Shown one piece after another: positions 41,688-54,945 of a DNA stretch of 64,000 bases. Position numbers and translations under genes: made by a program. The notes below the pieces were generated by a model that worked only from the letters and a program-made list of their open reading frames with translations, was not told where the DNA came from and searched no databases. This stretch comes from Polyangiaceae bacterium (GTDB lineage Bacteria; Myxococcota_A; Polyangia; Polyangiales; Polyangiaceae): assembly GCA_025937835.1 (NCBI GenBank), contig JAICQO010000023.1:1-64000 (forward strand). Direction: 5' to 3'. Every line of letters begins with the position of its first letter. The first letter of the stretch is position 1.

Positions 41688-43121
41688 CTAACCGCCGGTC
41701 CCGAGCCGTTCGCGGCGCGCCGCCAAGATCTTCGCGAACGAGCGCAAATTGAGCTCGTCCGGCGTGAGCCCCGTTGCCCGCGCCTCTTCGAGGTCGATCG
41801 CCCCGGAGTTCTGCGCGCGCAGGAAGTAGTTGAGCAGGCCCTGACCCGTCGCCGCGTCGTCGAACACGTCGCCCACCAGCGTGGCCTGCGCCGCCTTGTC
41901 TACGAAGTTGCGGAGGCGCTCGGCGGCTTGTGCGAAGCCCTCCAGGAAAAACGCGTAGCAAGTGGCGTAGCGCACCGGGAGCTGCGCGGGGTGCAGGTCC
42001 CAGCCCTGGTAGTAGCCGTTCTCGAGCGAGTGGCGGATGCTCTGGTGCGAGAGCTGCCACGCGGAATGTACGGCCGCGCGATTTTCGGCGAGCTGTTCGG
42101 GGCTGAGCCCCTTGCCCCTGTGCGGGCCGACGGGCATCACGTTGGTGGCGCCGTCCGACAGGAAGATGCCCGTGCCGGCGTAGGCCAGCGTCATCATCCC
42201 TTTGGCGAGATCGCACATCGGGTGGCGCATGTGCTGGTAGGCGGCGGTGATGTTGGCGGACGCCGTGAAGTCGTAGGTGCCGAAATGCGCGGCCTGGCAG
42301 CGGCCTTCGCAGGCGTCGAGCAGCTTCGGCAGCGGCGAGTAGCCGTTCGGGCCGAGCAGCGACTGGGTCGTCTCGATCATCAGCTCGAGCCGCAGCGCAC
42401 CGTGCTCGAGGCCGTGGCGGCGCTCGAGCAGCTCGAACAGCCGGACCAGCGTGCGCGGCTGCTCGGGGATCGTCACTTTCGGCAGCGTGACAACGAAGTT
42501 CGGAGGCAACACGCCGCTCGTGGCCTTGAGCAGCGTGTCGACGAACAGCTCGAGCGTGCGCGCGGCGCGGTGCTTCCACTCCTCGCTCAGGGATTTGATG
42601 CGGATGCCGATGAACGGCGGGAGCTGCTCTTCGGCGAGTGCGTGCGCGACCTCGAGCGCTGCGCGTTGCGCGGTGTCGTCTTCCTCGCTGTCGGGGCGCG
42701 CCCCGAAGCCGTCCTCGAAGTCGATCCGGAAGTCTTCGACGGGCTCGCGGGCGAGCTTGGCCTGGACGCGCGAGTGCACGGCGAACACGAGCCAGGCCTC
42801 GGGATCCCGCTGCTTCAGGGCGAGCGGATCGCGCTCGAGCTCAGCGGCGAGGTTTGCGCTCGCGAGCCGTTCCAGGGTTTTCGGCGAGGCGAAGCCGACG
42901 CCGCGCGCGAACTCCAGCGGATCCTTGCCGTAGGCTTCGAGCGACGCGAGCGCGAGCTCCCCGAGGCGCTTCGTGGTTTCGGCCTTGTAGAGCTGCGCGC
43001 CACCGTAGACCGTGTGCACGGGCTGGCGTGTCGGGCGGTCCCCCGGGTAAAGGCGCGCGAGCGTGCGGTTTGCCTCGCCGAGCGCGGCGAAATGAGCGGT
43101 GGCTTCGTCGACCAGACTCAT
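41688..43121 (-). CDS. CitE/HpcH-HpaI/malate-synthase-like TIM-barrel protein of the ureide operon
   Basis: The 477-residue protein matches the CitE-like/malate-synthase superfamily in its key motifs: an acidic metal site FRIDFEDGFGARPDSEEDD, LPKVTIPEQPRTLVRLFEL, the metal-ligand LRLELMIETTQSLLG, CEGRCQAAHFGTYDFTAS and a late LENGYYQGWDLHPAQLPVRY. Members of this subgroup (often called DUF6986) occur beside uric-acid and allantoin genes in other bacteria; I state this from memory. It is the last gene of the purine operon, 10 bases after the HIU hydrolase stop. A role in using glyoxylate, for example as an unusual malate synthase, is inferred from context. Confidence 0.8.
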   Translation of the reverse strand: MSLVDEATAHFAALGEANRTLARLYPGDRPTRQPVHTVYGGAQLYKAETTKRLGELALASLEAYGKDPLEFARGVGFASPKTLERLASANLAAELERDPLALKQRDPEAWLVFAVHSRVQAKLAREPVEDFRIDFEDGFGARPDSEEDDTAQRAALEVAHALAEEQLPPFIGIRIKSLSEEWKHRAARTLELFVDTLLKATSGVLPPNFVVTLPKVTIPEQPRTLVRLFELLERRHGLEHGALRLELMIETTQSLLGPNGYSPLPKLLDACEGRCQAAHFGTYDFTASANITAAYQHMRHPMCDLAKGMMTLAYAGTGIFLSDGATNVMPVGPHRGKGLSPEQLAENRAAVHSAWQLSHQSIRHSLENGYYQGWDLHPAQLPVRYATCYAFFLEGFAQAAERLRNFVDKAAQATLVGDVFDDAATGQGLLNYFLRAQNSGAIDLEEARATGLTPDELNLRSFAKILAARRERLGTGG

Positions 43122-43131
43122 GGGCTTGTCC

Positions 43132-43485
43132 TCAGGATCCCCGGTACGTGGAATAACCGAACGGGCTCAAGAGCAGCGGCACGTGATAGTGCGCGGCGGG
43201 ATCGTCGACGCTGAAGATCACCTCGACGCGGGGGTAGAAACAGGGCCGGCCGCTTTGCGCGTGATACGCGCCCGTCTCGAAGGTCAGGCGGTAGGTGCGC
43301 GCCTCGAGGGAGCCTTCCTGCATCAGGTCCGGCACGCGTCCGTCCTCGTTGGTCGTCGAGTGCGCGACGCTCTTCCAGTCGCCGCTCGGCTCGAGCACGT
43401 CGAGGCGGACGGCGAGGCCGCGCGCCGGCGTGCCGAGCGCGGTGTCGATAACGTGCGAGCTCAGGGGACTCTTGCTCTTGCTCAT
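43132..43485 (-). CDS. uraH: 5-hydroxyisourate hydrolase
   Basis: The 117-residue transthyretin-like protein begins SKSPLSSHVIDTALGTPARG, with the family His in SSHVLD-type context, has ARTYRLTFETGAYH and PRVEVIFSVDDPAAHYHVPL, and ends in the signature tetrapeptide YRGS. It opens the ring of 5-hydroxyisourate, the product of urate oxidation, to OHCU. The ATG overlaps the stop of the decarboxylase gene (ATGA). No signal peptide is present, so the enzyme is cytoplasmic. Confidence 0.97.
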   Translation of the reverse strand: MSKSKSPLSSHVIDTALGTPARGLAVRLDVLEPSGDWKSVAHSTTNEDGRVPDLMQEGSLEARTYRLTFETGAYHAQSGRPCFYPRVEVIFSVDDPAAHYHVPLLLSPFGYSTYRGS

Positions 43486-44000
43486 GCGGCGAGCTTCTCC
43501 AGCCGGAGGCGCGTGATTTTGGCTTGTTCTGTGGCCGCGATCGACAGCTCGCGGTCCGGAGCGTTGTCGAGGCGCGCCTCGAGCAGTCGGAGCATTTCCT
43601 CGGCGCTCTTGCCGCTCGCGCAGACGATGAACAGGAAGCCGAAGCGCGCGAGGTAGCGGGCGTTGCCGGCGGCGAGGCGTTCTATGGTGCGCCGAGCCGC
43701 CCGCGTGACTCCCGCCTGCTCGGAGCTCGACCAATCTGCGGTGGTTGCGAAGCGCTCGGCGAGCTCGGCAGGGTCAGCGCCGATCTGCGGGTGGTGCGAG
43801 AAGGCTTCCAGGAAATCGGCGCGTTCCAGCCCGGCCCAGACCGCCTCCGCATCTCGGAACAGAGCTTCTCGCGAGGCGAACGGGCGACGCGCGAGCATGC
43901 CCGCGACCCAGCGGCTCGAACCGCAGCAACGCTCGAGCGCGCGCTCGGCGTCTCTGGTGGAGAGCGCATTCAGCCGCGCGTGCGGTGCCGAATCACCCAT
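43482..44000 (-). CDS. uraD: 2-oxo-4-hydroxy-4-carboxy-5-ureidoimidazoline (OHCU) decarboxylase
   Basis: The 172-residue helical protein carries the conserved HPQIG catalytic region (LEAFSHHPQIGADPAELAER), EQAGVTRAARRTIERLAAGN and FGFLFIVCASGKSAEEMLR, all signatures of OHCU decarboxylase. It removes CO2 stereospecifically to give S-allantoin. The start overlaps the end of the allantoicase gene by eight bases and its end overlaps uraH. Together with uraH it shows that this operon degrades urate through the enzymatic, not spontaneous, route. Confidence 0.97.
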   Translation of the reverse strand: MGDSAPHARLNALSTRDAERALERCCGSSRWVAGMLARRPFASREALFRDAEAVWAGLERADFLEAFSHHPQIGADPAELAERFATTADWSSSEQAGVTRAARRTIERLAAGNARYLARFGFLFIVCASGKSAEEMLRLLEARLDNAPDRELSIAATEQAKITRLRLEKLAA

Positions 44001-45027
44001 CGCGCGTCCCCCACAGCCGGAGCCGGCTCACGCCTCCGTCGGGGAAAATGTTGAGGCGCACGTGGCTGACGCTTCCGCTCGACCTGAGCTCGGCAGGGCC
44101 GAAGAAATGGCGCGTGTCGGCCTCGAGCTTGGTTTCGGCCAAAAGGGGCAGAAAGTCCCGGGATTCGAGCAGCTGGGTGATGCGCGCGCCCGGGGCGTCG
44201 ATGGCCTCGAGCGCAGCGCGATCGGGGTAGTTGCCCTTGAAGTGGTGGGTGTCGACCTCGGCGCAGCGCACCTGGCCGCGCGCCGCGAGCTTCACCAGCA
44301 CCCAGTCGTAACCAGGTCCGCGGCGACGGCGCGTCTCCCAGCCTCCGCCCATGTCGGCGGCGCGCCCGGGGAGCAACAAATGATTCATCGGGCCGAAGTG
44401 CGCGTCCGAGCAAGCCAGGCACGAGGCTCCGTTCTTCAGCGCTGCGAGGTCGACCCAATCGGCGGCGACATGGGTCGCGGCGAGCTCGTCGACGTCGCGC
44501 TCTGCCCAGTTCGGCGCCACGCGGCCGAAGGCGCGGAAACGCGCCACGCCGCCGTCCGGGAAAATGTTGAGGCGCAGGTGCGTGACGGGCGCGGCGGCGA
44601 CGGCCGCGAACAGGTTCTGCGAATCGGGTCGAAGCGGGCTCTCTGGCAAGAGCTCGGTCCAGCTCGCACGCTCGAGCGCGTCGAGCGGCGTCGAGCGCGG
44701 TGCGTTGAGGCCGTCGACCGAGGCGAACGCCGGCTGATTACCGGAAAAATGGCCGGTGTCGATGTCGAAGCCGAGCAGCGTCCCCGGGCTACCGAGCTCG
44801 AGGATCGAGTAGTCGTAGCCCGGCGTGCGCTTTCTGCGGCTTTCCCAGCCGTCCATCCACTTGCCGCGGTCCGTGTATTTGCCTTCGATGAACACGGCGC
44901 GGCCGGGCTCGAGCATCCGGCTCGCGCTCGCGAAGAAGTCGTCGCTCGTGAACAGCACCTTGCCGCCGAAATCGCGTCCGGCGAGGTCGACGAGACCCGT
45001 GAAGGTGGCGGCGCCCGCGGGCTTCAC
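43993..45027 (-). CDS. alc: Allantoicase
   Basis: From GTG 45027, overlapping the allantoinase stop (GTGA), the protein has 344 residues, as expected. It has the two repeats of the family: the first with DDFFASASRMLEPGRAVFIE, KYTDRGKWMDGWESRRKR, GFDIDTGHFSGNQPAFASVD and HLRLNIFPDGGVARFRAFG; the second with MGGGWETRRRRGPGYDW, CAEVDTHHFKGNYPDRAALE and HVRLNIFPDGGVSRLRLWG. It converts allantoate to ureidoglycolate and urea. No ureidoglycolate lyase gene is seen in the cluster, so that last step is elsewhere or spontaneous. Confidence 0.96.
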   Translation of the reverse strand: MKPAGAATFTGLVDLAGRDFGGKVLFTSDDFFASASRMLEPGRAVFIEGKYTDRGKWMDGWESRRKRTPGYDYSILELGSPGTLLGFDIDTGHFSGNQPAFASVDGLNAPRSTPLDALERASWTELLPESPLRPDSQNLFAAVAAAPVTHLRLNIFPDGGVARFRAFGRVAPNWAERDVDELAATHVAADWVDLAALKNGASCLACSDAHFGPMNHLLLPGRAADMGGGWETRRRRGPGYDWVLVKLAARGQVRCAEVDTHHFKGNYPDRAALEAIDAPGARITQLLESRDFLPLLAETKLEADTRHFFGPAELRSSGSVSHVRLNIFPDGGVSRLRLWGTRDG

Positions 45028-46370
45028 GCGCTGGCTCCGCGGCTCAGCAACGGCCGCCCCGTGGGCTCGGCGAGGTGCCCGTCCGCTCCGTACACGCGCT
45101 GCCCTCCGAGCCAGGTTTCCCGAACCTTGCCCGTGAACGTCTTGCCGAGGAACGGCGAGATCCGATGCTTGAAGAACAGCTCGCTCTCCTTCACCTGAAA
45201 CGTGCTCTCGGGATCCCAGATCACGACATCGGCATCGAAGCCCGGAGCGAGCTTGCCCTTTTTGCGCTCGAGGCCGGCAAAGCGTGCCGGCGCCTGGCTC
45301 ATCCAGCGCGAGAGCTGTTCGACGCTGGCGCCGCGGGCGCGCGCTTCGGTCCAGATCGCCGGCAAGCCGAGGCCGAGCGAGGCGATGCCGCCCCAGGCCG
45401 CCTGGAAATCGCCGCGCTCGGGCAGCTTGAGCGCGGGCGTGCACGGGCTGTGGTCGCTGATCACGAAGTCGATCACTCCTTCGAACAACGCGCGCCAGAG
45501 CGCCTCGCGGTTTTCATGTTCCCGGATCGGCGGCGCGCACTTGAAGTGGGTGGCGCCGTCGGGGATCGATTCTGCCTCGAGACACAGGTAGTGGGGGCAG
45601 GTTTCGACCGTAACCGGCAGACCCTCGTCCCTGGCCTGGCGAAGCTGCGGCACCGACCCCGCCGAGGACAGGTGCACGATGTGCACGGGGCAGCCAGTCT
45701 CGCGGCAGAGCCGGATCAACAGCGCGATGGCAGCGTCTTCCCAGGCGGCCGGCCGCGAGCCGAGGTAAGCGCGGTAGGCGCGCGGGTCGTCGCCCGACGC
45801 GGGACCGCCGAGCTCGAGCTCGGCGTGGGCGAGCAGCGGCAGCCCCGAGTCGCGCAACGCCGGCATGGCGCGCCGCAGATCCGCCTCGGTCGACCGCGGG
45901 AATTCTTCGATGCCCGAATCGCACAGGAAGGCCTTGCAGCCGAGCGCGCCCGCTTCGCCGAGCCGGCGGAGCTCGGTCTGGTTGCCGGGGACGACTCCGC
46001 CCCAGAAACCGACATCGACGAACAGATGGCCGCGCGCGCTGTCGAGCTTTTGCTCGAGCGCGGCTCGCGTCGTCGTGACGGGCAGCGAGTTCAGGGGCAT
46101 ATCGACCAGCGACGTGACGCCGCCAGCGGCCGCAGCGCGCGTCGCGGTCTCGAAGCCTTCCCACTCGGTGCGTCCGGGCTCGTTCACGTGCACGTGGCAG
46201 TCCACGAGCCCGGGGGCGAGCACCGATTTGCCGTAGTCGTAGAGCGTCGGCAGCGCCGTTTCGTAGGCTTCGAGCGCGCGGATTTGCCGGCCTTCGATGA
46301 CCACTGTCGCGGGAGCGACGCCCTGCGCGGTGACCACTCGCTCGCTCTTCAGCCCGACTAGCGCGCTCAA
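45024..46370 (-). CDS. allB: Allantoinase
   Basis: I start it at TTG 46370, which overlaps the stop of the flavoprotein gene (TTGA) and has GGAGGAG just before it. This gives 448 residues; an ATG at 46394 would add 8. Amidohydrolase metal motifs are present: LVDCHVHVNEPGRTEWEGF (HxH), LGCKAFLCDSG (carboxylated Lys), LLAHAELELG, CPVHIVHLSSAG and VISDHSPCTPALK (Asp). It hydrolyses allantoin to allantoate. The position between the flavoprotein and allantoicase follows the pathway. Confidence 0.95.
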   Translation of the reverse strand: MSALVGLKSERVVTAQGVAPATVVIEGRQIRALEAYETALPTLYDYGKSVLAPGLVDCHVHVNEPGRTEWEGFETATRAAAAGGVTSLVDMPLNSLPVTTTRAALEQKLDSARGHLFVDVGFWGGVVPGNQTELRRLGEAGALGCKAFLCDSGIEEFPRSTEADLRRAMPALRDSGLPLLAHAELELGGPASGDDPRAYRAYLGSRPAAWEDAAIALLIRLCRETGCPVHIVHLSSAGSVPQLRQARDEGLPVTVETCPHYLCLEAESIPDGATHFKCAPPIREHENREALWRALFEGVIDFVISDHSPCTPALKLPERGDFQAAWGGIASLGLGLPAIWTEARARGASVEQLSRWMSQAPARFAGLERKKGKLAPGFDADVVIWDPESTFQVKESELFFKHRISPFLGKTFTGKVRETWLGGQRVYGADGHLAEPTGRPLLSRGASA

Positions 46371-47767
46371 AACTCCTCCGCTGCGAAAGCGCACAAGCTC
46401 TGGTAGTGCTCTTCGCAGTCTTCGCGGAACAGCGAGCCGGTGATGCCGTGGACCAGGCGCGGGTTCGAGTACTTCATGCCCGAGATGCTGGCGCCGCCGA
46501 AGCCCAGGCTGAGCAGCCCTCCGAACGTGTAGTTGTAGAGCGTCGAAAGATACGGAGCCTCGCCCGGCGTGCGCTCGGTGAACTCGAAGTTCGGCCCGAG
46601 GTAGGGGTGGCGGCCGAGATCGTCGTGGCGTTCGGCTCTGGGCGGCGTGTAGCGGTCGGCCCAGCGCGCGATCTGCGGCTCGATCGCTTCGAGCTCCGGG
46701 CGCAGCTTCAGATCCGTCACGAAGCCGGTGCCGACGATCACGAAGTCGGCCTCGTGGCGCCCGCCCTCGGTTTCAATCGCGATCCGGTCGCCGTCCATCC
46801 GGAGCGACTTCCACGCGGACCCCGGGTGCAGATGAAACCCCGGGTGCTCGCTCGCCCGACGGAAAGTGTCCGCCGGTGGCAGCTGCCCCATCCGCAGGAT
46901 CTGCGAAATGAAGCGCCACTTCTCGGCGTCGCCGAGATCCCCGAGGTGCTTCAAGAATCCGACGAACTCCGCCCAGCGGTAGGCGTTGACGTTGACCAGA
47001 GTCTTGCGCCGAAAATACAGCCGCACTTCGCGAGCGCCCTGCTCGAGCGCGGTCGCGGCGTTGTCGAACGCGGACGCCCCGGCTCCCAGCACCGCGACGC
47101 GCCGACCACGCAGCCGCGCGAAGTCGATGTCATGGCGCGTGTGCGCGTAACGCTCGGGCGGGAGCGCTTTCGAAAGCCATTCGGGCACGTGCCAGTTGCC
47201 GGAGCCCTCGATGCCCGTGGCGAGCACCACGCGGCGGGCGAAGGCGAGCTCTGTGTTCCCTGCTCGTTCGAGCGGCACCCGCCAGGCGCGCTCGGCGGGG
47301 TCGTAACCAAGGGCGCCGACGCGCGTCTCCGGGCTAACCGGGATGCCCAGCGTTCGGCGGTAAAAGCTCAGGTACTCCGCCCAGGTCTCCTTGGGGATCA
47401 GGCCCAGCTTTTCCCAGCTACCCTCGCCATGCACCGACTCGTACCAGCTCCGCGGGGTCAGGCTCGGGATCCCCAGATCCGGGCCGGTCAGGTATTTCGG
47501 GGTGCGCAGGGTGCGCATGCGCGCGAAGCTCAACCACGGTCCGGCGCGATCGAGCGGGTTCTGATCGACCACCAAGAGGTTCCGGATCCGCTCGCGCATC
47601 AGCCCGAAGGCAGCGCTGAGCCCGCTCTGGCCCGCGCCCACGATCAACACGTCCAGGATCGGCTGGCCTTCGCGGGTCGAGCGTGGCGCGAGCCACTCGC
47701 GCTCGGGGTAGCTGAGGAGCTCGAGGTCGCGCCGCACACGCTCGGCCAGGCGATCTTCCGGCGTCAT
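46367..47767 (-). CDS. FAD/NAD(P)-binding monooxygenase-like protein; candidate urate hydroxylase
   Basis: The 466-residue protein has two dinucleotide-binding motifs: FAD at residues 44-49 (VLIVGAGQSGLSAAFG) and NAD(P) at 228-233 (VAVLGAGASAFDNAA). Between them RYAHTRHDIDFARLRG sits where class B flavin monooxygenases carry their His fingerprint. VVDQNPLDRAGPWLSFARMR and ADFVIVGTGFVTDLKLRPEL also fit that superfamily. It is not similar to UaZ (uricase), PuuD or, as far as I can see, class A HpxO. Its start overlaps xdhC and its end overlaps allB, so it is translated within the urate pathway, which otherwise lacks an oxidase. Assigning urate hydroxylation is inference from this gap. Confidence 0.8.
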   Translation of the reverse strand: MTPEDRLAERVRRDLELLSYPEREWLAPRSTREGQPILDVLIVGAGQSGLSAAFGLMRERIRNLLVVDQNPLDRAGPWLSFARMRTLRTPKYLTGPDLGIPSLTPRSWYESVHGEGSWEKLGLIPKETWAEYLSFYRRTLGIPVSPETRVGALGYDPAERAWRVPLERAGNTELAFARRVVLATGIEGSGNWHVPEWLSKALPPERYAHTRHDIDFARLRGRRVAVLGAGASAFDNAATALEQGAREVRLYFRRKTLVNVNAYRWAEFVGFLKHLGDLGDAEKWRFISQILRMGQLPPADTFRRASEHPGFHLHPGSAWKSLRMDGDRIAIETEGGRHEADFVIVGTGFVTDLKLRPELEAIEPQIARWADRYTPPRAERHDDLGRHPYLGPNFEFTERTPGEAPYLSTLYNYTFGGLLSLGFGGASISGMKYSNPRLVHGITGSLFREDCEEHYQSLCAFAAEEF

Positions 47768-48612
47768 ACCGGCTCGTCCGTCTCGGCGGGCTCGATCAGC
47801 TCCTCGAGCACGCGCTGCAAGCGGAGATCCTCGACGGAGCGGAGGTGCGGTGCGGCCTTGTCATGGCGCAGCGCGACGAGCTCCGCCGCGATGCTGATCG
47901 CGATTTCCTCGGGGCCGACGGCGCCGAGGTCGAGCCCCACGGGGGCGTAGACGCGATCCAGCGGCAGCTCTTGTCCGCGCCTGAGGGCGATGCGCTGGAG
48001 CAGCCGGAACACCTTGCGCTTGCTGCCGACGAGCCCGATGTAGCGCGGCCGGCGCTGGATGGACAGCTCGAGCGCCTGCTGATCGAGCCGGTGATCGTGG
48101 GTCACGATCAAGAGCCAGTCGCGGTCCGTGAAGCGGGTTTCGGCCAGCACGCTTGCTGGATCGCGGAGCTCGCGCCGGCACCCGGGAAAGCGCTCCGCCG
48201 TGTTCAGCTCCTCGCGCTCGTCGACCACGGTGAGCTCGAAGCCGATGCGCTGGCAGACCGCGGCCGTTGCCCGGGCGACGTGACCCGCGCCGAACAAGTA
48301 GAGCCGCGGCGCAGCTTCGACGGGCTCGATGAAGATCTCCATCCGCCCGCCGCAGCACATCCCGAGGTCTCGTCCCAGATCTCTCGCCAGTAGCTCGGAC
48401 TTTCCCGTCGCGATCGCCGACTCCAGCGCCCGTTCGACGACTTCTTCGATCGCGCCACCGCCCACGGTTCCGAGGCGCGTGCCGTCCGGACGGAGCAAGA
48501 GCCGTGCGCCCGGGCGTTGCGGCGTGGACCCCGAGACCCGCACCACCGTCGCGAGCGCGCCGCGCCGGCCGCTCTCCAGTACGTCGAGCAATGCTTTGGC
48601 AACCTCGCGCAC
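47764..48612 (-). CDS. xdhC: Xanthine dehydrogenase accessory protein XdhC
   Basis: The 282-residue protein starts at GTG 48612. The N-terminal XdhC_CoxI domain has SGSTPQRPGARLLLRPDGT, GTVGGGAIEEVVERAL and the cysteine motif LGMCCGGRMEIFIEP. The C-terminal Rossmann-like domain has LYLFGAGHVARATAAVCQ, DWLLIVTHDHRLDQQALE, YIGLVGSKRK and the late PVGLDLGAVGPEEIAISIAA. XdhC binds and sulfurates the molybdenum cofactor and inserts it into XdhB. It is the first gene of the minus-strand operon and diverges from xdhA with 145 bases between. Confidence 0.96.
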   Translation of the reverse strand: MREVAKALLDVLESGRRGALATVVRVSGSTPQRPGARLLLRPDGTRLGTVGGGAIEEVVERALESAIATGKSELLARDLGRDLGMCCGGRMEIFIEPVEAAPRLYLFGAGHVARATAAVCQRIGFELTVVDEREELNTAERFPGCRRELRDPASVLAETRFTDRDWLLIVTHDHRLDQQALELSIQRRPRYIGLVGSKRKVFRLLQRIALRRGQELPLDRVYAPVGLDLGAVGPEEIAISIAAELVALRHDKAAPHLRSVEDLRLQRVLEELIEPAETDEPV

Positions 48613-48757: not shown

Positions 48758-50185
48758 ATGAGCGTGCGCTTTCTCTTGAACGGCGAGCGGGTTCATGTCG
48801 GCGACGTGGACCCACACACGACGTTGCTCGGCTGGCTGCGCGAGCGCGGCCTCACCGGCAGCAAGGAGGGCTGCGCCGAGGGCGAGTGCGGCGCGTGCGC
48901 CGTGGCGCTCTTGCGCCGCGGACCCGACGGCACGCCGCGCTACGACGCCGTGAACTCGTGCCTCGTGCCGCTGCCGTCCCTCGACGGACAAAACGTGTGG
49001 ACCGTCGAGGGCGTGGCCGAGCCCGACGGCAGCTTGCATCCGGTACAGGCGGCGCTGGTGGAGCGCGGCGGCTCGCAGTGCGGTTACTGCACACCGGGCT
49101 TCGTTGTCAGCTTGTTCTGCGAATACTACCGGCCGGGGCGCGTCGAGCCCGATCCGGAGTCGATCAGCGGCAACCTGTGTCGTTGCACCGGCTACCGGCC
49201 GATCCTCGACGTGTTGAAGGCGATACCCGCGGCCGCGCCCGAAGATCCGCGGCGTCCGGAGCGGCGCCTGCCCGTCGTCGCGAGCGACACCGAGTCGCGC
49301 CTCGAGCACGTGGCGGGCGCGCGGCGCTTCTTGCTGCCCGAGCGGCTAGAAGCAGTGTTCGAGGCGCTGGAGCGCTTCCCCGAGGCGACCCTGATCGCCG
49401 GCGGCACCGATCTGATGGTGTACGTGAACCAACGGGCAGCTCGCTATCCCGTGCTGGTATCACTCCAAGGCGTGACTGAGCTCCGTCGCTGCGAGGCCGC
49501 CCCTCACGAGCTCGTGCTGGGCGCAGGGCTTCCGCTCTCGGAGCTCGAGGCCGAGCTCGCCGAGCGGTGCCGGGGCGAGCTCGGCCTGCTGGAGCAGCTC
49601 TTGCCGCTGTTTTCGTCGCGGCTGATCCGCAACCGGGCGACGCTCGGTGGCAACCTCGGTACGGCCTCGCCGATCGGTGATTCGCCGCCGGCGCTGCTCG
49701 CCCTGGACGCCGAGCTCACGCTGGTTTCGAGGGGCGGCGCGAGACGCGTGCCGCTCATCGAATTCTTTACGGGCTACCGCGAGAGCCTGCTCCGCGCGGG
49801 AGAGTTGATCGTGTCCGTGCACGTGCCGCGGCCCGCGCCGCGTTTTCAGCGCTTCTACAAGGTGAGCAAGCGCGTGCTCGACGACATTTCGACGGTCGCC
49901 GCTGCGTTCGGGCTCGATCTGGATGCCGCGGGTAGGGTCGAGCGCTTGCGGATCGCCTTCGGCGGCGTCGCGGCGACACCGGTGCGCGCGCTCGCAGCGG
50001 AGTCGGCGGCGCGCGGCCTTCCCTGGGATCGCGCGACCGTCGAAGGGCTGCTCGACGCGGTTTCGGCGGCCGCGACGCCGATCACGGACCACCGAGGAAG
50101 CGCCGAGTACCGCCGGGCGATGGTGCGACGGCTGTTCCAGAAGTTCTTCGCGGACACGGCGCTCGCGGCGGAGGCTGCAGAATGA
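48758..50185 (+). CDS. xdhA: Xanthine dehydrogenase small subunit (2Fe-2S and FAD domains)
   Basis: From ATG 48758 (MSVRFLLNGERVHVGDVDPH) the protein has 475 residues. It carries both iron-sulfur clusters: the plant-type site GSKEGCAEGECGACAV and the alpha-helical site CGYCTPGFVVS with CRCTGYRPILDV. The FAD domain has ATLIAGGTDLMVYVNQ, LIRNRATLGGNLGTASPIGD and KVSKRVLDDISTVAAAFGLD. It passes electrons from the molybdenum centre in XdhB to FAD and NAD. Its stop overlaps the xdhB start (ATGA). Confidence 0.97.
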   Translation: MSVRFLLNGERVHVGDVDPHTTLLGWLRERGLTGSKEGCAEGECGACAVALLRRGPDGTPRYDAVNSCLVPLPSLDGQNVWTVEGVAEPDGSLHPVQAALVERGGSQCGYCTPGFVVSLFCEYYRPGRVEPDPESISGNLCRCTGYRPILDVLKAIPAAAPEDPRRPERRLPVVASDTESRLEHVAGARRFLLPERLEAVFEALERFPEATLIAGGTDLMVYVNQRAARYPVLVSLQGVTELRRCEAAPHELVLGAGLPLSELEAELAERCRGELGLLEQLLPLFSSRLIRNRATLGGNLGTASPIGDSPPALLALDAELTLVSRGGARRVPLIEFFTGYRESLLRAGELIVSVHVPRPAPRFQRFYKVSKRVLDDISTVAAAFGLDLDAAGRVERLRIAFGGVAATPVRALAAESAARGLPWDRATVEGLLDAVSAAATPITDHRGSAEYRRAMVRRLFQKFFADTALAAEAAE

Positions 50186-52503
50186 GCAGCGTCGGTAAGC
50201 CGCTGCCGCACGAGTCCGCCGGCCTGCACGTGACGGGCAAGGCCCGCTACGTGGACGACCTGGTTCCGACGCTAGCGGGCACGCTGCACGCTTACCCGGT
50301 GCTCGCGCCGCATCCCCACGCGCGCGTGCTCGCGATCGACGCCGTCGCTTGCCGGGCCTTGCCGGGCGTGGTGACGGTGCTCACCGCAGCAGACGTTTCC
50401 GGCGAAAACGACACTGGACCCGCGCGCCACGACGAGCCGCTGTTCCCGTCCGAGGTCGCGTTCGCGAGCCAGCCCGTTGCGTGGGTGCTCGCCGAGACCG
50501 AGGAGCAGGCGCGGCTCGGGGCGGCCGAGGTCCGCGTCGGCTATGAGCCGCTCCCGGCCGTGCTGTCGATCGAACAGGCCATCGCCGAGAATAACTTTCT
50601 CACGGAGGAAGAGCGCATTTGCCGCGGTGATCCGCAGCGAGCGCTGGCCTCGGCGCGTTTCCGCACGGCGGGCGAGCTATTCATCGGCGGGCAGGAGCAT
50701 TTCTACCTCGAGACGCAGGCCGCGCTCGCCTTCGTCGACGAAACCGGCAGTGTGTTCGTTCATTCCTCGACCCAGCACCCGTCCGAGACACAAGAGATCG
50801 TGGCGCGTGTCCTCGGCCTGCCGAAGAACGAGGTCGTGGTGCAGTGCCTGCGCATGGGCGGCGCTTTCGGCGGCAAGGAGGTGCAGGCGAACGCGTGGGC
50901 CGCGGTCGCCGCGCTCGGCGCCGTGAAGACGCGGCGCCCGGTGCGGGTGCGCCTGTCGCGGCAACACGACATGCTGACTACCGGCAAGCGGCACCCGTTC
51001 CTGGGCCGCTTCGAGGTCGGCTTCGGCGCGGACGGCCTGCTCGAGGCGGTTCGGATCGAGCTCTACTCCGACGGCGGCTACAGCCTCGACCTCAGCTCGC
51101 CGGTGCTGATGCGCGCGCTGTTCCACGTCGACAACTGTTACTACCTGCCGAACATCGAGGTGCGGGGCCGGCCGTGCCGCACGAATACCACGTCACACAC
51201 GGCCTTTCGCGGCTTCGGCGGACCGCAGGGCATGCTCGTGATCGAAGAGATCCTCGATCGCGTAGCGCGAAAGCTCGAGTTATCGCCGCACGTGGTGCGG
51301 GAGCGGAACTTCTATCGGCCCGGGCAGACCGCGCACTACGGGCAGGTCGTGAAAGACGCCGAGCGCATCGCGCGGATCTGGACAGAGCTCCGCGCTTCGA
51401 GCGACTTCGACGCGCGCTGGGAGGCGGTCCAGCGGTTCAACGCGGAGCACCCCGAGACCAAGCGCGGCCTCGCGATCACGCCCGTCAAGTTCGGCATCTC
51501 GTTCACGACCGCCTTCTTCAATCAGGCGGGTGCGCTGGTCCTGGTTTACAAGGACGGAACCGTGCAGGTGAACCACGGCGGCACCGAGATGGGGCAGGGG
51601 CTTCACACCAAGATCCTCGCCATTGCCGCGGACGCGCTCGGGCTGCCCGCCAGCGCCGTGCGCGTGATGGCGACGCGCACGGACAAGGTCCCGAACACCT
51701 CCGCCACGGCCGCTTCGAGCGGCTCGGACCTGAACGGCGCCGCGGTGCGCGCGGCCTGCGACGAGATCCGCGGGCGGCTCGCCGAGATCGCCGCGCGGCG
51801 CTTCCTCACCGAGCCGGAGGCCGTGCGCTTCGAGGACGGCCGGGTCTTTCGGCCCGGCTTTCCCGAACACAGCGCGAGCTTCGGCGAGATCGCCGCCGAG
51901 GGATACCTGGCGCGGCTCCCGCTTTTTGCCACGGGCTATTACCGCACCCCGAACATCCATTTCGACCGCGCGAGCGGCACCGGCAAGCCGTTCCACTACT
52001 ACGCCTACGGAGCCGCCGTGAGCGAGGTCGAGGTCGACGGTTTCACCGGTCAGTACCGGCTACTCCGAACCGACATCTTGCACGACGTCGGCGATTCCCT
52101 GTCGCCGCTCGTCGATCGCGGTCAAGTCGAGGGCGGCTTCATCCAGGGCGTGGGCTGGCTGACGACGGAGGAGCTGGTGTGGTCGGATGGCGTGCTCAAG
52201 ACGAACGGCGCCTCGACCTACAAGCTACCGACGCTCGGCGAGTGTCCCCCCGTGTTTCGCGTCGAGCTTTTGACGCGCGCGCGCGAGCCCGACGTGATCC
52301 ACGGCAGCAAGGCCGTTGGCGAGCCGCCGTTCATGCTCGCGTTCAGCGTGCGCGAGGCCCTGCGCGCCGCCGTAGCGGCCTTCGGCTCCGGCGGCATCGT
52401 CGAGCTCGCGAGCCCGGCCACACCGGAGGCCGTCTTCTGGGCCATCGAAAAGACGCGCGCTCGCACGGCCTGCACCACCTCACGAACGAATGCGGCGGAG
52501 TGA
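50182..52503 (+). CDS. xdhB: Xanthine dehydrogenase large, molybdopterin-binding subunit
   Basis: The 773-residue protein has the normal length. Family motifs are QEHFYLETQAALAF, SSTQHPSETQEIVARVLGLP, MGGAFGGKEVQAN, FRGFGGPQGMLVIEEILD, VNHGGTEMGQGLHTKI, and TSATAA-like TSATAASSGSDLNGAA. The catalytic Glu is Glu714 in KAVGEPPFMLAFSVREAL. It oxidises hypoxanthine to xanthine and xanthine to urate at a Mo-pterin centre matured by XdhC. There is no signal peptide, so the enzyme is cytoplasmic. The gene ends next to a large inverted-repeat element. Confidence 0.97.
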   Translation: MSSVGKPLPHESAGLHVTGKARYVDDLVPTLAGTLHAYPVLAPHPHARVLAIDAVACRALPGVVTVLTAADVSGENDTGPARHDEPLFPSEVAFASQPVAWVLAETEEQARLGAAEVRVGYEPLPAVLSIEQAIAENNFLTEEERICRGDPQRALASARFRTAGELFIGGQEHFYLETQAALAFVDETGSVFVHSSTQHPSETQEIVARVLGLPKNEVVVQCLRMGGAFGGKEVQANAWAAVAALGAVKTRRPVRVRLSRQHDMLTTGKRHPFLGRFEVGFGADGLLEAVRIELYSDGGYSLDLSSPVLMRALFHVDNCYYLPNIEVRGRPCRTNTTSHTAFRGFGGPQGMLVIEEILDRVARKLELSPHVVRERNFYRPGQTAHYGQVVKDAERIARIWTELRASSDFDARWEAVQRFNAEHPETKRGLAITPVKFGISFTTAFFNQAGALVLVYKDGTVQVNHGGTEMGQGLHTKILAIAADALGLPASAVRVMATRTDKVPNTSATAASSGSDLNGAAVRAACDEIRGRLAEIAARRFLTEPEAVRFEDGRVFRPGFPEHSASFGEIAAEGYLARLPLFATGYYRTPNIHFDRASGTGKPFHYYAYGAAVSEVEVDGFTGQYRLLRTDILHDVGDSLSPLVDRGQVEGGFIQGVGWLTTEELVWSDGVLKTNGASTYKLPTLGECPPVFRVELLTRAREPDVIHGSKAVGEPPFMLAFSVREALRAAVAAFGSGGIVELASPATPEAVFWAIEKTRARTACTTSRTNAAE

Positions 52504-53596: not shown

Positions 53597-53962
53597 ATGT
53601 CGAGCATTTACGAGCAAATCGGCGGCGCCGCCGCGGTTGAAAAGGCAGTCGACATCTTCTATCGGAAGATGCTGATCGACGACCGAGTCGCCAGCTACTT
53701 CGACGACGTCGACATGGACCGACAGCGCGCGAAGCAGATGGCCTTCCTCACCATGGTGCTGGGAGGACCGAGCCACTACGCGGGCCAAGATATGCGTCGT
53801 GCGCACGCTCACCTCGTCAAACGCGGGCTCGGTGATCTACACGTCGACGTCGTCATCGAGCACCTGGGTGACACGCTCAAGGAGCTCGGCGCCAACGAGC
53901 AGCAGATCGCTGCGGTCGCTGCGATCGCCAACTCGGTCAGGAACGACGTCCTCGGTCGCTGA
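53597..53962 (+). CDS. Group 1 truncated haemoglobin
   Basis: The 121-residue protein matches group 1 truncated globins throughout: SIYEQIGGAAAVEKAVDIFY at the N-terminus and ADFDDVDMDRQRAKQMAFLT-type B/E helices. Tyr22 is at B10, Gln43 near E7 and Gln47 near E11. The proximal haem ligand is His70 in MRRAHAHLVKRG. The distal His found in cyanobacterial GlbN is replaced by Lys46. This combination fits tight O2 binding and nitric-oxide or peroxide chemistry. It lies eight bases before an Fe-S/flavin reductase gene, which would supply electrons. Confidence 0.95.
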   Translation: MSSIYEQIGGAAAVEKAVDIFYRKMLIDDRVASYFDDVDMDRQRAKQMAFLTMVLGGPSHYAGQDMRRAHAHLVKRGLGDLHVDVVIEHLGDTLKELGANEQQIAAVAAIANSVRNDVLGR

Positions 53963-53970
53963 GTCATCCC

Positions 53971-54945
53971 ATGCCGCGCGTACATTGCGACGGGCGTGAC
54001 TTGACGCTCTCATCCGACGACAACCTGCTCGACGCGTTGCTGGGCGCCGGCGTCCAGGTGGCGAGCTCCTGCCGAGCCGGAGCCTGCCAGCAGTGCCTGG
54101 TAAAAGCCGTGCGCGGGGTCCCCCCGGCCAGCGCCCAGTCGGGCCTCAAAGACGCGCAGCGCGCGCAGGGCTATTTCCTGGCCTGCCAGGCCAAGCTGAC
54201 GGAGGATCTGACGCTCTCTTTGTCGGCGGCTCGAGAGCTCGATACACCCGGCAGCGTCGTCTCGCTCGACGCGCTGTCGTCGAGTGTGGTTCGAGTGCTC
54301 GTCAGACCCGGAGCGGCGTTCGAGTACCGAGCGGGTCAGTACGTCACGCTGATTCGCTCGGATGGCTTGGCGCGATCGTATTCGCTCGCGAGCCGGCCCG
54401 ACTCGGACGGCGGCTGCCTGGAGCTGCACGTCCGGGTCTTTCCTCAGGGGCGGATGAGCGGCTGGCTCGCAAGCGCCAGGGCGTTGCACGCGGAGGTCTC
54501 GCTGCGGGGACCGCTCGGAGAGTGCTTCTACGTGCCGGGGCAGCCGGCGCAGCCGCTGTTGCTGGTCGGCACGGGCACCGGTTTGGCCCCGCTCTGGGGC
54601 ATCCTGCACGATGCCCTGGCTGCGGGTCACACCGGTCCGATCGAGCTCTGGCACGGCGCACGCACCGCTGGTGGGCTGTACTTGGTGAGCGAGCTGGAAG
54701 CGCTCGCTGCCAGGCATCGGAACTTCACCTACCGGCGTTGCCTCCTCGAAGGCCCGGCGGGAGTCGGCGTCGAGCTCGGCAATCTGGACGTCGCAGTCCT
54801 CGCCTCTGCCACGTCCTTCGAGGGCCGCCGCGTGTTCCTCTGTGGGGATGCCCAGCTCGTCCAGCAGACGAAGCGCAAGATCTTCTTGAAGGGCGCCGCG
54901 ATGCGCGAGATTCACGCCGACGCGTTCCTCGCCTCGCCGGCGTAA
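53971..54945 (+). CDS. Ferredoxin-domain / FAD / NAD(P)H oxidoreductase, likely globin reductase
   Basis: The 324-residue protein begins with a 2Fe-2S ferredoxin domain with ligands Cys34, Cys39, Cys42 and Cys72 (SSCRAGACQQCLVKA, YFLACQ). A flavin domain follows (AGQYVTLIRSDGLARSYSLA, the RxYS flavin motif), then an NAD(P)H domain (LLLVGTGTGLAPLWGIL, RVFLCGDAQLVQQ). The order is that of phenol/benzoate dioxygenase reductases and related enzymes. It starts eight bases after the truncated-haemoglobin stop. The two genes together resemble a flavohaemoglobin split into separate chains. Confidence 0.92.
   Translation: MPRVHCDGRDLTLSSDDNLLDALLGAGVQVASSCRAGACQQCLVKAVRGVPPASAQSGLKDAQRAQGYFLACQAKLTEDLTLSLSAARELDTPGSVVSLDALSSSVVRVLVRPGAAFEYRAGQYVTLIRSDGLARSYSLASRPDSDGGCLELHVRVFPQGRMSGWLASARALHAEVSLRGPLGECFYVPGQPAQPLLLVGTGTGLAPLWGILHDALAAGHTGPIELWHGARTAGGLYLVSELEALAARHRNFTYRRCLLEGPAGVGVELGNLDVAVLASATSFEGRRVFLCGDAQLVQQTKRKIFLKGAAMREIHADAFLASPA

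Follow-up and report, generated by a model that had tools for sequence, protein, structure and literature searches.

A predicted HpyO-type urate hydroxylase encoded in the purine catabolism operon of a Polyangiaceae bacterium

Gene content and organization of the purine catabolism locus

The window (the whole 64,000-nucleotide stretch of DNA analysed here, from the genome of a Polyangiaceae bacterium) contains a set of genes for purine degradation arranged in two divergent groups. On the minus strand, an open reading frame of 466 codons with an ATG start, at 46367-47767, encodes a flavoprotein with two dinucleotide-binding motifs and lies between xdhC and allB. The sequence-only reading had placed this protein at the urate oxidation step and had listed xdhABC and the genes for 5-hydroxyisourate hydrolase, OHCU decarboxylase, allantoinase and allantoicase around it. 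Family models matched each of these neighbours, xdhA slightly below its cut-off, as follows:

41688..43121, minus strand: DUF6986 protein, next gene of the operon after uraH (PF22484, 579 bits; starts 10 nt past the uraH stop)
43132..43485, minus strand: uraH, 5-hydroxyisourate hydrolase (PF00576, 131 bits, cut-off 25; C-terminus YRGS)
43482..44000, minus strand: uraD, OHCU decarboxylase (TIGR03180, 173 bits, cut-off 139)
43993..45027, minus strand: allantoicase (TIGR02961, 391 bits, cut-off 278; GTG start overlapping the allB stop)
45024..46394, minus strand: allB, allantoinase (TIGR03178, 541 bits, cut-off 358; overlaps the end of hpyO)
46367..47767, minus strand: hpyO-type gene, 466-aa product predicted to hydroxylate urate to 5-hydroxyisourate with FAD and NAD(P)H, assigned on homology, motifs, tree and fold model
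47764..48612, minus strand: xdhC, xanthine dehydrogenase maturation factor (Pfam XdhC domains matched; 4-bp overlap with hpyO)
48758..50185, plus strand, divergent: xdhA, xanthine dehydrogenase small subunit (TIGR02963, 450 bits, just below the cut-off of 467; ATG start)
50182..52503, plus strand, divergent: xdhB, xanthine dehydrogenase molybdopterin subunit (TIGR02965, 986 bits, cut-off 849.5)

The minus-strand genes form a tight operon in the order xdhC, hpyO, allB, allantoicase, uraD, uraH, each adjacent pair overlapping or abutting, and the overlaps first read around the flavoprotein gene are present on both sides (ATGA shared with xdhC; allB overlapped or abutted). The operon does not end at uraH, and the DUF6986 gene continues it. 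Homologs of the DUF6986 protein were found in six related uraD/uraH loci, in most of them directly after uraH (L127, L128, L132 and L134), and no AllA-type ureidoglycolate lyase (PF04115) was detected in the 95.8% complete genome. The DUF6986 protein may serve the ureidoglycolate step, as a candidate ureidoglycolate-cleaving enzyme. Elsewhere in the window, at 53597-54945 on the plus strand, a truncated-haemoglobin-like gene (Bac_globin) adjoins a 2Fe-2S/FAD/NAD reductase gene, and the two make a plausible globin-reductase pair.

Other urate oxidases in the genome

The assembly to which the window belongs comprises 6.9 Mb in 227 contigs and is 95.8% complete, and the flavoprotein is present in it as a single copy. 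Whole-genome searches gave zero matches both to the UaZ/PucL uricase family (PF01014) and to PuuD (PF06181). No protein exceeded the cut-off of the NCBIfam urate_HpxO model anywhere in the genome; only sub-threshold class A flavoproteins were retrieved, the best of them at 97.6 bits for a cut-off of 500, and the window flavoprotein did not match this model at all. The absence of UaZ-, PuuD- and HpxO-like proteins, originally read from the window, thus extends to the whole of the available assembly, for HpxO at the level of the model cut-off. Because the other genes of the pathway are present while UaZ, PuuD and any HpxO over the cut-off are absent genome-wide, the gap at urate oxidation is confirmed. 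There remains a slight chance that a uricase gene lies in the missing part of the 95.8% complete assembly.

The class A FAD monooxygenase encoded on contig C215 was considered as the true urate hydroxylase, being the top match of the genome to the HpxO model. It lies far under the 500-bit cut-off, however, and the same model also retrieves generic flavoproteins in 12 of 14 control genomes. Moreover, the neighbours of this gene (open reading frames read by eye) code for a DUF389-like membrane protein and a peptidase-like protein, with no purine genes among them. We therefore rejected it as an HpxO on its sub-threshold score and its neighbourhood, and give this explanation almost no credence.

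Motifs and predicted fold

The two dinucleotide-binding sites noticed by the sequence-only reading are both present, as GAGQSG at residues 44-49 and GAGASA at residues 228-233, the second ending in A and so departing from the GxGxx(G/S) pattern under which it had been described. The class B monooxygenase-like character attributed to the region between them is borne out at the level of the predicted fold but not of the classical signatures, as the strict FMO and BVMO fingerprints (FxGxxxHxxx[YF] and FxGxxxHxxxW[PD]) are absent from the protein. In the family alignment A208 is invariant and H209-T210 near-invariant, which would place the linker nearer to that of N-hydroxylases than to those of FMOs or BVMOs.

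An AlphaFold2 model built with 35 homologs (mean pLDDT 92, pTM 0.91) confidently predicted a class B-like architecture in which one domain serves FAD and another NAD(P)H. The top matches among solved structures were the ornithine/lysine N-hydroxylases PvdA, KtzI and SidA (Z 25-29, best 29), together with bacterial flavin-containing monooxygenases, and the predicted fold matches NADP-bound N-hydroxylases. A sequence search of the PDB retrieved two weak matches only, and no close relative whose structure has been solved. The model supports a class B flavin monooxygenase fold of the N-hydroxylase kind.

Relationship to HpyO of Xanthomonas

An FAD-dependent urate hydroxylase of Xanthomonas named HpyO was reportedly the subject of a 2012 article by Michiel et al. 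(Environ Microbiol Rep 4:642). In the passages of PMC4562309 and PMC10117892 that cite Michiel et al. 2012, HpyO is reported to hydroxylate urate with FAD and NAD(P)H and to have no relationship to HpxO. A family-alignment scan of named genomes reached homologs in X. euvesicatoria and X. dyei, encoded in a cluster with the order aminotransferase, puuE, uraD, flavoprotein, uraH. The flavoprotein of this cluster aligns with the window protein across 460 residues, that is over the full length, at 44% identity (E 9e-135). It is flanked by uraD and uraH and is the sole flavoprotein in the cluster, and we infer from this position and from the literature statement that it is the HpyO assayed in 2012.

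By analogy with Xanthomonas HpyO, the window gene very probably encodes a urate hydroxylase of the HpyO type. The sequence-only reading had gone further and proposed a new type of enzyme, on the premise that all known FAD urate hydroxylases are class A proteins with a single dinucleotide fold. HpyO, which is non-homologous to HpxO, contradicts this premise. The role itself stands, on synteny, class-wide complementarity, phylogeny and the structure model, with the activity argued by analogy; the novelty is not supported, because HpyO was already described and the flavoprotein encoded between uraD and uraH in Xanthomonas is homologous to the window protein over its whole length. A previously unknown type of urate hydroxylase, the fourth or fifth and independent of HpyO, might be suggested by the fact that the protein is not HpxO, UaZ or PuuD and is named by no NCBIfam model. 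NCBIfam holds no HpyO model, and the matches of the protein there are weak generic flavoproteins. Its identity to the Xanthomonas protein over the full length, the single continuous family that the two form in the tree and the earlier description of HpyO make such a new type very unlikely. The protein is almost certainly a further example of the known HpyO enzyme type.

Linkage and complementarity across genomes

In 36 loci examined, members of the family accompany uraD, uraH or both; these loci come from Myxococcota, Pseudomonadota and Bacillota, including Comamonas, Xanthomonas, sphingomonads, Acetobacteraceae, Niveispirillum and Priestia, and in several gene orders. The same linkage was seen again in five further regions from the class of the window, read at greater length. 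The varying order around a constant pair speaks for functional linkage and against the shared descent of one block.

Of 290 genomes surveyed in the class, 120 have uraD, 112 have PuuD (101 of them with strong matches), 4 have UaZ and 17 carry the window family. Every one of these 17 carriers also has uraD, and PuuD and UaZ are missing from all of them. Conversely, the family is present in 17 of the 18 uraD genomes that lack a strong PuuD or UaZ. Fisher tests of this pattern gave p values of about 1e-19 to 1e-26 with relatedness ignored, and the carriers are spread over many genera, several families and several orders. In this class of bacteria HpyO thus regularly takes the place of PuuD and UaZ. 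In one of the carriers (G072; L133 and L134) the hpyO-type gene and a uraH-uraD-allB-allantoicase cluster lie on separate contigs, so that physical linkage alone does not account for the pattern.

A separate observation concerns the related genome G212 (L126, contig C398), where uraH and allB occur with a gene for an allantoicase-UraD fusion, and in which PuuD, UaZ and HpyO were not found; its want of a known urate oxidase reflects a gap in the assembly or the use of a different urate oxidase. The gene adjoining allB there codes for a protein resembling copper type II monooxygenases, which shows no evident connection with urate, and it stands as a lead only.

Paralogs, distinguishing residues and phylogeny

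Not all relatives of the window protein are linked to uraD or uraH. Diverged paralogs or a Bradyrhizobium-type form occur in four genomes (two of Bradyrhizobium, one of Kaistia and one of Enhydrobacter; L064, L085, L023 and L035), all of which hold a full-length PuuD. No full-length PuuD or UaZ was found in the named genomes carrying the linked gene (Xanthomonas, Acetobacter, sphingomonad, Priestia and myxobacterial genomes), and one Phenylobacterium genome showed a short partial match. Relatives without the linkage also adjoin genes for sarcosine oxidase or for questin oxidase.

At eight positions, three urate-linked clades share a constant residue (90% or more) that differs from that of the Bradyrhizobium-type clade: T89, I186, N261, E267, Q295, P297, S429 and G430. 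The window protein carries the urate-linked residue at all eight. In the tree it falls within the myxobacterial clade with 100% SH-aLRT support, its nearest named relatives being Myxococcota MAGs (L016 and L017); on both grounds a myxobacterial host is most likely. The branch uniting this clade with the Xanthomonas/sphingomonad/Bacillota clade has only moderate support (85), and a few unlinked sequences fall on it as well.

The paralogs give some ground for supposing that the window protein, though a class B flavin monooxygenase of this family, has a different purine-derived or heterocyclic substrate, urate being oxidized by an enzyme encoded elsewhere: they stand apart from uraD and uraH in Bradyrhizobium and other PuuD-holding genomes, and some adjoin the oxidase genes mentioned above. 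This explanation is nevertheless highly improbable in view of the lack of UaZ, PuuD and any HpxO over the cut-off in the genome itself, the near-perfect complementarity across the class, and the urate-linked residues at every distinguishing position. There is likewise only a small chance that the myxobacterial clade has come to differ from Xanthomonas HpyO in its substrate or product, for example a relative of urate or a stereochemically different product. For the HpyO-type assignment, the eight residues combined with the confident fold model offer a means of separating true HpyO from look-alike paralogs, most of which are named merely "NAD(P)/FAD-dependent oxidoreductase" in databases.

Proposed reaction

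In the HpyO-type reaction that we propose, the first Rossmann domain, with the motif at 44-49, would bind FAD, and the second, with the motif at 228-233, would bind NAD(P)H. The flavin would be reduced by NAD(P)H, and O2 would then yield a C4a-(hydro)peroxyflavin, from which one oxygen atom would be placed onto C5 of urate to give 5-hydroxyisourate, the other being released as water. This flavin chemistry is likely by analogy with class B monooxygenases in general, likeness of fold being no proof of it. The UraH and UraD of this operon would convert the unstable 5-hydroxyisourate to (S)-allantoin, which AllB and allantoicase would take to ureidoglycolate. The HpyO-type assignment would in this way settle the apparent gap in the purine pathway.

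Comparison with known systems

The window protein shares its overall fold (Z 25-29) with the ornithine/lysine N-hydroxylases PvdA, KtzI and SidA and with bacterial FMOs, but the identity is about 15-19%, and those enzymes carry out amine hydroxylation or heteroatom oxygenation in other pathways. PuuD and UaZ serve the same pathway step and are the alternatives in related genomes, whereas they are unrelated proteins and are absent from the genome studied here. The HpxO of Klebsiella catalyzes the reaction predicted for the window protein, also with FAD and NAD(P)H; it differs in having a class A fold and a single dinucleotide-binding domain, and HpyO is described as non-homologous to it where PMC4562309 mentions the two. 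Finally, the protein differs from Xanthomonas HpyO by an identity of 44% and by a gene order with xdhC, allB and allantoicase where Xanthomonas has puuE, but shares with it full-length homology, a two-Rossmann flavoprotein architecture, clustering with uraD and uraH, and a place in the pathway where it would stand in for UaZ, HpxO or PuuD.
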